DNA of 64,000 nt from NCBI GenBank assembly GCA_016194975.1, contig JACQAM010000012.1, positions 62,001-126,000 of the forward strand, given 5' to 3'. The translations under genes were made by a program, and so were the position numbers. Of the stretch, positions 41,410-44,664 are shown one piece after another (the first letter of the stretch is position 1; every line of letters begins with the position of its first letter). Origin of the DNA: Bacteroidota bacterium. Lineage in GTDB: Bacteria > Bacteroidota > Bacteroidia > Palsa-965. The notes beneath the pieces were generated by a model. The model ran no database searches, was not told where the DNA came from, and worked only from the letters and a program-made list of their open reading frames with translations.

Positions 41410-41790
41410 ATGAAGGCCCATCACACCGAAAAGCACCGACTCACCACACTCCAGAAACAAATTCTTCTCTGGTTGAAGAATGAAGGCGGAGGAGTGTTGC
41501 GCGTCGACCGGCTTTTTACGGCAATGGTCAATAATCATCAAACTCCGGGAACCAATTTTTCCCTGCTGGCAGAAAGATTATATGATGCTGTAGATGATCT
41601 CGCCCGGAGAAATTATGTGGAAGTGAGAAAAGAAAGTGAAACCAAAAGAAAACAAGCGCTTTCCATTTATGATTTCGGAGCGCCGGGAAAGAATTTTTCG
41701 CACGAAGGTGAAATTTTCATCTGGTCAACCGGCGAATGCCCTGTAGTTGCACTTGCTGATGAGGGTGTAAGGCATGCAGCAGCGATTTAG
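41410..41790 (+). CDS. Hypothetical protein whose end is formed by a miniature element
   Basis: 126 residues. LTTLQKQILLWLKNEGG and LAERLYDAVDDLARRNYVEVRKES suggest a winged-helix-like N-terminal half; the second half (DFGAPGKNFSHEGEIFIW, GECPVVALADEGVR) is unrecognised. The last base of the TAG stop (41790) is the first base of the miniature element. Without the insertion the frame would read one further codon (tac) and then TAA, so only one residue was lost. It could be a small regulator; possibly itself a partial gene. Confidence 0.5.
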   Translation: MKAHHTEKHRLTTLQKQILLWLKNEGGGVLRVDRLFTAMVNNHQTPGTNFSLLAERLYDAVDDLARRNYVEVRKESETKRKQALSIYDFGAPGKNFSHEGEIFIWSTGECPVVALADEGVRHAAAI

Positions 41791-41952
41791 AGGCTGTTTA
41801 AAATTCATTTTTTGGAATTGTTATGATGCCATTTTTGTTCAGCCGAGACGCATTTTGCAGGCCATAGTGGAGCGACTACGGCCAAGAAATGCAACGAAGG
41901 ATGAATAAAAATGGCGGATAACAAAACAGAAGGATGAAATTTAAACAGCCTC
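41790..41952. mobile_element. 163-bp miniature inverted-repeat element (GAGGCTGTTTAAA ends)
   Basis: Ends GAGGCTGTTTAAA (from 41790) and TTTAAACAGCCTC (to 41952) are inverted copies that continue with small mismatches. A 3-bp duplication TTA flanks them (41787-41789 and 41953-41955). It has no transposase gene; internal frames are not protein-like. It is non-autonomous, probably moved by an IS element elsewhere in the genome. It separates the hypothetical gene from the AAA ATPase gene and fills most of the 240-bp spacer. Confidence 0.85.
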
Positions 41953-42030
41953 TTACTAAAGAATAGTTTTTTTCTGCGCCGCGCTTTTACTAAATTCATC
42001 TCCCCAAATCAATAAGAAATATTTTCCCAC

Positions 42031-44664
42031 GTGAAGCAATATAAATTCAAAGACCTCCGCACTTTCTCCTCCGATGAATGGATGGCGAATTCCACGAAAA
42101 AGTACCGTCGGATATTCGATAAAGCGGAAACTACTTACGTGCGCTGTGAACTCTCGTTCTACAATAAATTATTCGATGAAGAGGACTGGAGCTGCACGGT
42201 CGTTCTTAAATGTTTCGATGTGACAGGCGGACAAAAAAAAGAACTCTGTTCGCTCGATACGAAACGTGATGTGAAAAAAGATGAGAACATCGTGTACATG
42301 CGCGATGGCTGGGGCAATGCAACAGAAGGCGCATACTGGAGAAAAGGCGAATTTGTGTGGGAAGCATACATCGAAAACGAATTAGTGGGCGCTGCAAAGT
42401 TTGTGATCAATGATGTGGCAAAGGTTGTGTTGGGAAACAACCCATACTTCGATGTCGAGTATATAAAATTATATACCGGCGACAAGAACGCGTGGGAGAT
42501 CAAGGACAGGAAATACCTGGTAAAAATAAATCGCAACACCACTCCGAATGTGTGGGTTGAATTTAAAATGAAAAATAAAGTGAATGTGGACTGGCAGTAC
42601 GAGATATTCTTCAATTTTCTCGATGATGCGTACCAGTTGAAAGGGCAGGTGATGAGCGAAGGAAAAATTGAAGCCGCCAAACTCGATTACACATATAACA
42701 TCAATGTAGGATGGGGACACGAGAAACCAGGAGAATGGAAAGACGATAAGTATGAAGTAGAAGTTGTGTTCATGGATACGCTCATCGCTATGGTGAGTTT
42801 CGAATGCGGTGATGCAGATGAAGAAGGAATTCCGCAACTCATTCTCGGTGGAACGCGTCTCGAAGTTGCAGCAGGCGAACAGAACACGCAGAATAAAACA
42901 AGCGAGCAGAAAGTGGAAGATGAATCCATGGAACAACTGCTTGCGAAACTGGATTCACTCACCGGTTTGACCGAAGTGAAAAAAGCAATTCGCGATCACA
43001 TCAGTTATCTCAACTTCATCAAACTCCGCCAGGAAAAAGGTTTTGAAGAAAGCGGAAAATTAAGTTTGCATTCTGTTTTTACCGGGAATCCCGGTACGGG
43101 AAAAACAACAGTGGTGAACATGCTCGGAAAAATTTATAAGAAAATGGGATTGCTCACTAAAGGCCATGTGCAGGAAGTGGATCGCGCCGATCTCGTGGGT
43201 GAATACATCGGGCAAACCGCCCCTAAAGTGCGTAAAGCAATAGAGCAGGCGAGAGGAGGAATTCTTTTTATTGATGAAGCGTACTCACTCGCGCGCCAGG
43301 GCGATGATGCAAAAGATTTCGGAAAAGAAGTAATTGAAATTCTCTTGAAAGAAATGTCGGATGGAAAAGGAGACATCGCCATCATGGCGGCCGGCTACCC
43401 GAAAGAAATGGATGTGTTCATCGATTCTAATCCGGGTTTGAAATCTCGCTTTTCTCATTACTATAATTTCGAAGATTACCTACCGGAAGAATTGATCGAG
43501 ATCGCATTGCAGTCGGCAGAAAAAAAAGGAGTTACTCTTACTGATGAAGCGAAAAAATTTCTCGAAGAACAATTCGTGGAATTGTACCGCACGCGCGACA
43601 ACGCTTTCGGAAATGCGAGAATGGCGATCGGCGTTATCGAAGAATCGAAAATGGATATGGGTTTGCGATTGATGCAGGCCGGCGATCTTTCTCAATTGAG
43701 CAAAGAACAATTATCCATGATCGAACTTTCCGATGTGGAAAAAGCTTTCGGCGGGCGCACACGCAAGCGCGCCGATATCGGCATCAATGAAAAATTATTG
43801 CGTGAGTCACTTGAGGAATTGAATGCACTCGTGGGAATGGAAAATATAAAAACGGAAATAAATGAACTGGTGAAACTCGTTCGTTTTTACCGCGAGACCG
43901 GAAAAGATGTGATGAATCGTTTTTCACTGCACGCAGTTTTCACCGGAAATCCGGGAACAGGAAAAACTACACTCGCACGCATCATTGCAAAACTTTATAA
44001 AGGACTCGGACTTCTTGAGAAAGGACATCTCGTGGAAACAGATCGCCAGGGATTGGTTGCCGGCTACATCGGGCAAACGGCGATCAAAACGCAGGAACGT
44101 GTGGATGCTGCAATCGGCGGTGTGCTTTTCATTGACGAAGCGTATGCATTGGGCGAAGGCGGATCGGGAGATTTCGGAAAAGAAGCAGTGGAAGTTGTTT
44201 TAAAAAGAATGGAAGATCAGCGCGGACAATTTGCAGTGATCGTTGCCGGTTACCCGGAGAACATGTACAAATTCATGGAAACGAATCCCGGTTTGAGATC
44301 GCGCTTCGATCGCACTTACGAATTCAAGGATTATTCGCCCGAAGAATTGTATGTGATCTCGAAATCTTTATTGGCACAGGAAAAACTGCAGGCCACTCCC
44401 GAAGCGGACGATCATCTGAAAAAATATTTCGAATTGCTCTATACCAAACGCGATAAATTTTTCGGCAATGCACGCACCATTCGCCAGGTGATAGGCGAGG
44501 CGGTGAAGAATCAGCATTTGAGAATGGCTTCCATGGATGCGAGTGCGCGCACGCCCGTTACGCTCGGTACGCTCACGATAGACGATGTGAAAGAATTTGA
44601 ATTGAAAGACGATGGAGGCGGAAGGCCGCAACTCGGATTCCGTTTCGGAACGGCAGGCGCGTGA
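42031..44664 (+). CDS. Double CbxX/SpoVK-type AAA+ ATPase with a duplicated N-terminal beta domain
   Basis: 877 residues from a GTG start. Residues 35-128 and 174-263 look like two copies of one beta-rich domain, each ending with a GWG ... W-(R/K)-x-x-x-(F/Y)-x-(W/V)-E-(A/V) ... pattern (RDGWGNATEGAYWRKGEFVW; NVGWGHEKPGEWKDDKYEVE). Then come two CbbX-like AAA+ modules: Walker A GNPGTGKT at 352-359 and 639-646, Walker B ILFIDEA at 411-417 and VLFIDEA at 698-704, SRF arginine-finger segments at 472 and 757, and pore-like YIGQTA loops at 393 and 679. Both sites look active. CbbX proteins remodel Rubisco; EccA serves type VII secretion; this one has no such neighbour. A protein-remodelling role is inferred; the target is unknown. 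Confidence 0.85.
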   Translation: MKQYKFKDLRTFSSDEWMANSTKKYRRIFDKAETTYVRCELSFYNKLFDEEDWSCTVVLKCFDVTGGQKKELCSLDTKRDVKKDENIVYMRDGWGNATEGAYWRKGEFVWEAYIENELVGAAKFVINDVAKVVLGNNPYFDVEYIKLYTGDKNAWEIKDRKYLVKINRNTTPNVWVEFKMKNKVNVDWQYEIFFNFLDDAYQLKGQVMSEGKIEAAKLDYTYNINVGWGHEKPGEWKDDKYEVEVVFMDTLIAMVSFECGDADEEGIPQLILGGTRLEVAAGEQNTQNKTSEQKVEDESMEQLLAKLDSLTGLTEVKKAIRDHISYLNFIKLRQEKGFEESGKLSLHSVFTGNPGTGKTTVVNMLGKIYKKMGLLTKGHVQEVDRADLVGEYIGQTAPKVRKAIEQARGGILFIDEAYSLARQGDDAKDFGKEVIEILLKEMSDGKGDIAIMAAGYPKEMDVFIDSNPGLKSRFSHYYNFEDYLPEELIEIALQSAEKKGVTLTDEAKKFLEEQFVELYRTRDNAFGNARMAIGVIEESKMDMGLRLMQAGDLSQLSKEQLSMIELSDVEKAFGGRTRKRADIGINEKLLRESLEELNALVGMENIKTEINELVKLVRFYRETGKDVMNRFSLHAVFTGNPGTGKTTLARIIAKLYKGLGLLEKGHLVETDRQGLVAGYIGQTAIKTQERVDAAIGGVLFIDEAYALGEGGSGDFGKEAVEVVLKRMEDQRGQFAVIVAGYPENMYKFMETNPGLRSRFDRTYEFKDYSPEELYVISKSLLAQEKLQATPEADDHLKKYFELLYTKRDKFFGNARTIRQVIGEAVKNQHLRMASMDASARTPVTLGTLTIDDVKEFELKDDGGGRPQLGFRFGTAGA

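Follow-up and report, generated by a model that had tools for sequence, protein, structure and literature searches.

An Ig-headed AAA+ protein with two CbxX-type motors from Bacteroidota, and its relatives with three

The stretch of DNA analysed here (64,000 nucleotides, hereafter the window) carries a gene whose product was described, from its letters, as two CbbX-like ATPase modules preceded by a repeated N-terminal domain, raising the question of what kind of machine this is, and of what its head might do. The coding sequence specifies 877 residues with the architecture Ig-Ig-AAA-AAA (Table 1); its GTG start is supported because two homologues of the same genus (L094 and L096) carry GTG at the aligned position, the sole start in the stretch scanned.

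Table 1. Positions in the window of the gene and of the features of its product.
Feature	Position	Strand	Basis
CDS, Ig-Ig-AAA-AAA, 877 aa, GTG start	42031..44664	+	ORF; start codon kept in two same-genus homologues
Ig-like head domain 1, residues 4-128	42040..42414	+	AlphaFold model; shared unit signature in alignment
Acidic loop of head domain 1, residues 46-52 (KLFDEED)	42166..42186	+	70-row alignment; loop between strands 36-45 and 53-63 (model)
Ig-like head domain 2, residues 140-261	42448..42813	+	hhalign and AlphaFold model
Linker between head and motor, low confidence, residues ~275-299	42853..42927	+	pLDDT <50 at 275-296 in the full-length model
AAA+ module 1 (CbxX type), residues ~303-572	42937..43746	+	Pfam AAA and AAA_lid_6
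Walker A, module 1, residues 352-359	43084..43107	+	invariant 43/43
Putative pore loop, module 1, EYIGQT, residues 391-396	43201..43218	+	residue 392 is Y in 33/43, F in 10/43
Walker B, module 1, residues 411-418	43261..43284	+	D415, E416 in 43/43
AAA+ module 2 (CbxX type), residues ~588-856	43792..44598	+	Pfam AAA and AAA_lid_6
Walker A, module 2, residues 639-646	43945..43968	+	invariant 43/43
Putative pore loop, module 2, GYIGQT, residues 678-683	44062..44079	+	at residue 679: Y 27, F 15, H 1 of 43
Walker B, module 2, residues 698-705	44122..44145	+	D702, E703 in 43/43

Two motors behind a duplicated head

Pfam found two stretches each of AAA and AAA_lid_6 in the 877-residue chain, and no peptidase domain. 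Across 43 aligned full-length homologues, Walker A, the Walker B acids, the arginine finger (the arginine of NPG-x-x-S-R) and the sensor-2 arginine (R530 and R815, an assignment of our own) were invariant in both modules, as was the GY of sensor 1 (G455-Y456 and G740-Y741). N467 and N752 were also invariant, each standing six residues before an invariant arginine (R473 and R758). The pore-loop residue was aromatic in every homologue in module 1 and in 42 of 43 in module 2, the exception having histidine; we presume by analogy with CbbX that the EYIGQT of module 1 acts as a pore loop. Since the ATPase residues are invariant and the pore-loop residue is aromatic, both rings look able to hydrolyse ATP and grip a chain, which bears out the description of both modules as active-looking in the earlier note. 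By sequence, the protein holds two competent AAA+ domains per chain, as do type II AAA+ proteins (only a single chain was modelled). Among solved structures, the best sequence match of module 1 was CbbX (E 3e-53), and the closest solved relatives by sequence were CbbX (3syk, 3zuh) and EccA1 (9lur). In the full-length model, helices at residues 300-309 and 314-335 precede the Walker A motif of module 1; they are candidates for the helical hairpin described for the SpoVK/CbbX/EccA clade at that place.

To describe the head we used an alignment of residues 1-290 with 69 homologues, giving 70 rows picked for spread from 91 sequences. Matching a profile of residues 1-150 against one of residues 145-285, hhalign paired residues 13-129 with approximately 150-261 at a probability of 98.2% and an E-value of 5.8e-14; the two halves are therefore divergent copies of one domain, 20% identical, and the N-terminal duplication seen by the earlier note is upheld. 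An AlphaFold2 model of the head made from this alignment (pLDDT 92.3, pTM 0.85) gave both copies the same Ig-like beta-sandwich. The eight modelled strands of copy 1 (4-12, 28-30, 36-45, 53-63, 70-81, 87-95, 106-114 and 117-127) map one-to-one, in order, onto the eight of copy 2 (140-149, 163-167, 173-182, 188-198, 203-213, 221-229, 240-247 and 250-260). The boundaries proposed at the outset, 35-128 and 174-263, stand as domain cores, while the model extends the domains to approximately 4-128 and 140-261.

Residues 1-300 matched nothing in Pfam, NCBIfam or PADLOC, and profile searches of the head against the PDB returned nothing credible by sequence. Scans of individual members yielded weak and scattered matches, the best being to DUF3859 (E 0.0015 in one of 52 units), with one to an RbmA-like FnIII domain (E 0.006, again in one of 52 units only); we accepted neither. 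By structure, Foldseek placed tandem FnIII/Ig-like proteins on top (RbmA, VPS26 and transglutaminase domains), and structural re-alignment gave Z scores of 9-11 over approximately 100 residues against the Ig-like domains of AlkC, GH2 enzymes and Wzt, at 11-13% identity, with the best values within 1 of each other and so tied across unrelated functions. The modelled head is a beta-sandwich within the seven- to nine-strand range of Ig-like domains and matches solved examples of them; the earlier note could not assign the domain, and the model and structural search assign its predicted fold as Ig-like, a common one from which function cannot be read.

Conservation in the head peaks at a loop in copy 1, N-K-L-F-D-E-E-D-W (residues 45-53): all 70 rows agree at positions 45-50 and 53, and at least 90% agree at 51-52. 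A signature of Y, E, N, W-G, G, W and F at fixed places is common to all head units in a 52-unit alignment. The full-length model does not set the placement of the head relative to the motors because its pTM is 0.39.

Comparison with SpoVK, CbbX and EccA

The SpoVK/CbbX/EccA clade was defined in a 2023 preprint, the accessible portion of which describes N-terminal heads that vary, and portrays the studied members as dedicated chaperones whose different heads are thought to recruit clients and which have no peptidase partners (PMC10659427). Both modules here carry the GY of sensor 1 and the second arginine (sensor 2) given in that portion as defining the clade (PMC10659427), together with the arginine finger and AAA_lid_6, and a variable head again stands before a conserved motor; unlike the clade's described members, the chain has two motors and a tandem Ig-like head. 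CbbX, the red-type Rubisco activase, has the same aromatic pore loop but is a single module with no Ig head. EccA, the type VII secretion ATPase, likewise joins a head to a CbxX motor, but its head is TPR and its motor single, whereas the head here is Ig-like in the model. A Streptomyces plasmid protein (L231, 1523-4834, + strand), annotated as a beta-helix head and two CbxX modules, with eccCa and the gene of an S8 peptidase alongside, also places two motors after a beta-rich head. Its twinning arose separately, because its two modules are mutual nearest kin (100/96).

Could the protein nonetheless be a plain orthologue of SpoVK, CbbX or EccA with a known function? Its whole chain scores 522.4 bits against TIGR02881 (SpoVK), above the equivalog cut-off of 422.95. 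Modules 1 and 2 score 270.5 and 264.8 bits; each alone falls under the cut-off, so only the summed score passes it, and neither supplies the one domain above 422.95 bits expected of SpoVK. Against TIGR02880 (CbbX), the whole chain reaches 430.0 bits (226 and 212 per module) and stays under the cut-off of 459.25, and against TIGR03922 (EccA) it reaches 422.9 (220 and 215 per module) and stays under 466.65. No Rubisco large chain was found in the same genome, in a search that was positive in five of 14 control genomes, and the CbbX, SpoVK and EccA rows lie outside the Ig-CbxX modules in the tree described below. SpoVK is, moreover, reported from sporulating Firmicutes alone (PMC10659427). The module scores, the missing Rubisco and the tree already contradict such orthology, and we attach almost no probability to it.

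This has a consequence for annotation: a CbxX tandem clears the SpoVK equivalog cut-off by addition of scores and can be mislabelled as a sporulation protein, and spoVK is counted among sporulation genes in two community metagenomics papers (PMC10504347, PMC13057538). The heads named in the available text of the clade preprint are TPR, beta-helix, beta-prism and SF1 helicase, with Ig not among them (PMC10659427), and a search of the open-access literature, a scope outside which most subscription papers lie, found none that treats a Bacteroidota CbxX protein with an Ig head or twin motors. Judged against that portion of the preprint and that literature, the motor is of a known kind and the Ig-headed twin-motor architecture is what is new; the word 'undescribed' in the earlier note is apt for the Ig-Ig-CbxX-CbxX architecture and not for the motor, which belongs to a described clade.

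Distribution, relatives and ancestry

The gene is present once in its own genome (4.1 Mb, 28 contigs), where the runners-up are ordinary AAA proteins, none with an E-value below 3e-6. Of 148 relatives confirmed by scanning species genomes, the best 80 are 49-61% identical over nearly their whole length, and these 80 come from Bacteroidota groups apart from two Ignavibacteria. Matches occur in 12 of 39 near genomes. The head profile matches 88 of 395 sampled class genomes, 87 of which hold the full-length Ig-Ig-CbxX-CbxX type; the one class match of another type is a 1150-residue variant (G661). Among 395 phylum genomes the same profile matches 27, eight of them being of the Ig-Ig-CbxX-CbxX type by score and length, and a single-unit profile made from 52 units matches 45 of the 395, mostly in frames of ~880 or ~1300 residues. 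One homologue (L090) is broken into frames of 182 and 703 residues, by a frameshift or an assembly error.

The head domain is not private to this protein: single units stand before three CbxX modules, and pairs occur in small signal-like proteins. The 19 other genomes of the phylum scan have the head in different settings. Of 20 stretches examined, 15 encode AAA proteins (Pfam was run on six), most of ~1300 residues with a TPR-like N-terminus, a single Ig unit and at most three CbxX modules. The head unit thus occurs singly in TPR-Ig-CbxX3 proteins from other families of the phylum, and hhalign matched the single Ig of these long proteins to both head copies (E 1.6e-14 for copy 1, 2.6e-13 for copy 2). 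In the long proteins (L138-L152, L168-L204 and L240-L259, ~1300 residues), three complete Walker A motifs are the rule, possibly making a three-tier AAA+ motor; among 14 checked by pattern, nine have all three, and L140 and L146 keep one.

Several proteins depart from this plan. Short forms of ~764-777 residues are encoded beside groESL (L146, 5204-7495, - strand; L186; L196-L198), and the second module of L146 and of L186 has no Walker A motif and falls with module 3 of the long form, which would fit a loss of module 2 and of the TPR part. A 1145-residue protein (L205, 7063-10497, + strand), from the same taxonomic class as the 877-residue protein, combines traits of both architectures: it has two head units, recognised by profile, and three CbxX modules, of which the last has diverged strongly. 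Proteins of 278 residues have two Ig-like units after a signal-like N-terminus (L135, 5475-6308, + strand; L136, 5526-6359, + strand; L154, 40-873, - strand), and the cytosolic head probably has secreted cousins in them.

To place the modules we compared trees. In a tree of 79 AAA-module rows, module 2 of 11 Ig-Ig-CbxX-CbxX proteins joined module 2 of 12 long proteins (100/98), module 1 of both types lay on one side of a branch (100/98), and 14 modules of 12 other CbxX proteins (CbbX, SpoVK-like, EccA, the Streptomyces twin and others, from a hand-picked outside set of 12 plasmid loci) fell together outside (100/96); one branch, that of L205 module 3, was very long. A reduced quick tree of 70 rows drew three rows of the outside set, the two CbbX rows and the SpoVK-like row, over to the side of module 1. 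When the 25 module 1 rows were constrained to stay together, the resulting tree beat that quick tree by 20.4 log units (p-AU 0.83), so the quick search had missed a better tree; the module 2 pairing was present in both the 79-row and the 70-row tree. Because modules 1 and 2 of the long type pair with modules 1 and 2 of the Ig-Ig-CbxX-CbxX type, the simplest account of these sequences, given a hand-picked outside set, is that both types descend from one Ig-CbxX-CbxX ancestor, whose head was doubled in one line while the other gained the TPR part and a third motor. The TPR-Ig-CbxX3 proteins share the Ig unit with the 877-residue protein and differ from it in their TPR-like N-terminus, single Ig unit and usually three motors.

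Gene surroundings and possible roles

A Pfam scan of the ten neighbouring genes agrees with the initial remark that no secretion, Rubisco or sporulation gene lies nearby. We surveyed 80 homologous loci with a called focal gene (81 were given; L089 was missed) and 33 further loci, and found no gene that recurs beside the Ig-Ig-CbxX-CbxX gene beyond close relatives and no neighbour conserved beyond the genus. The best recurring neighbours were an epimerase-like gene (15/80, mostly in one clade) and an ABC-type gene (7/33, in varying places).

Around the long type, loci were picked from match lists, not at random, with genes called by a simple longest-ORF rule. Of a first set of 50, 49 come from one taxonomic family (f60) and one from the class of the 877-residue gene, four are second paralogues, and some stop near contig ends. 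In 27 of the 50, spread over 12 genera, groEL lies immediately upstream on the same strand; four have one gene between, and in the remaining 19 neither arrangement was found. Pfam confirmed both GroEL and GroES at L140. Terminator-like hairpins stand in 24 of the 27 groEL-side intergenic gaps, and GroEL is absent from 25 long-type loci of two other families (f42/f71). A groESL operon is weakened as an explanation by these hairpins, the one-family sampling, the second paralogues, the contig ends and the 25 loci with no GroEL; we found no CIRCE box within the 64-kb window at up to four mismatches. The adjacency is a hint, and about the TPR-Ig-CbxX3 relative only.

We favour, as reasonably probable, the reading of the 877-residue protein as a cytosolic, non-proteolytic, two-ring AAA+ remodelling chaperone of the SpoVK/CbbX/EccA clade whose client is recruited by the head. 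The suggestion of an undescribed remodelling factor thereby remains the best one, with both modules active-looking and the head a duplicated domain outside the families of the libraries searched. The role of the head would be to bind a substrate or a partner. The chain would assemble into a hexamer with two stacked rings, and the Ig head would recruit a specific client or partner, with the invariant acidic loop of domain 1 as the probable contact; ATP hydrolysis would then draw the client into the pore by a tail or a loop and let it go remodelled, not degraded, by analogy with the action of CbbX on Rubisco. The partner need not sit in an operon with the gene, because the gene stands alone among varied neighbours in the 80 and 33 loci. 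In favour of a chaperone, the TPR-Ig-CbxX3 relatives keep the same Ig-motor core and many in one family adjoin groESL. Against it, that neighbourhood belongs to a relative, in one family, and is mostly terminator-separated; the Ig-like fold is common and occurs in proteins that bind carbohydrate, DNA or protein, so that by itself it is no pointer to protein clients.

Other roles have to be weighed against this chaperone. An Ig-CbxX protein might serve a membrane process by holding a client that is exported or sits in the membrane in a competent state, in the way that EccA acts for type VII secretion: an ABC ATPase and an ABC_tran_2 permease lie directly downstream, on the same strand, of TPR-Ig-CbxX3 genes in 16 of 25 loci (f42/f71) and 14 of 49 (f60), and the same Ig unit builds the small proteins with signal-like N-termini. 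No ABC pair or secretion gene recurs, however, beside the Ig-Ig-CbxX-CbxX gene in the 80 and 33 loci, and we regard such an envelope or export helper as unlikely. The head could instead sense a ligand, either a glycan or a nucleic acid, and so switch the motor, in place of acting as a client receptor, and the top structural matches by Z do include the DNA-bound Ig-like domain of AlkC (Z 11.0, 108 residues, rmsd 2.9) as well as GH2 Ig-like domains and the Wzt carbohydrate-binding domain (Z ~10), all of them tied; but ties across unrelated functions, at such low identity and with no sequence match, show a common fold only, which leaves a sensor improbable.

Likeness to the IetA ATPase would suggest an anti-phage or conflict gene. 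The IetA/IteA anti-phage system is defined by a protease partner, yet no protease partner or defence gene recurs beside the gene here and none of the ten neighbours scanned is a protease; the PADLOC matches to IetA over the AAA part are weak (59 bits at best), the NCBIfam match to NF042959 (IteA) is 51.7 bits against a cut-off of 510, and both reflect generic AAA likeness. The gene is, in addition, single-copy and kept at full length across the orders sampled, and we think a defence role very improbable. An unfoldase feeding a separate peptidase would fit the two-ring layout, which resembles that of ClpA/ClpC and Cdc48, but no peptidase neighbours the gene in the loci examined. The clade, in the accessible part of its description, is also free of peptidase association (PMC10659427), and this role seems to us scarcely credible.

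If the chaperone reading is right, the gene would represent a chaperone family, widespread and encoded by single genes, whose motor has two rings, or three in relatives, and which has been overlooked so far, and its client should be findable with a Walker B trap. More tentatively, and as a possibility we would not lean on, Ig-CbxX proteins might together form an undescribed chaperone family of Bacteroidota-type bacteria, hidden under the SpoVK label, in which one branch stacks two rings and another three, the latter engaged in GroESL or ABC-exporter business.

The ground immediately upstream of the gene has features of its own. In six genomes of its own genus, and not further out, the AAA gene has upstream of it (in one of them not adjacent) a gene for 126 residues (41410-41790, + strand, in the window), which has no Pfam match and looks helix-turn-helix-like by eye. 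Directly upstream of the AAA gene lies a 174-base intergenic repeat (41789-41962, + strand) with matching inverted ends, GAGGCTGTTTAAA and TTTAAACAGCCTC; it is MITE-like and has 72 matching stretches genome-wide, ~24 of which are long copies.
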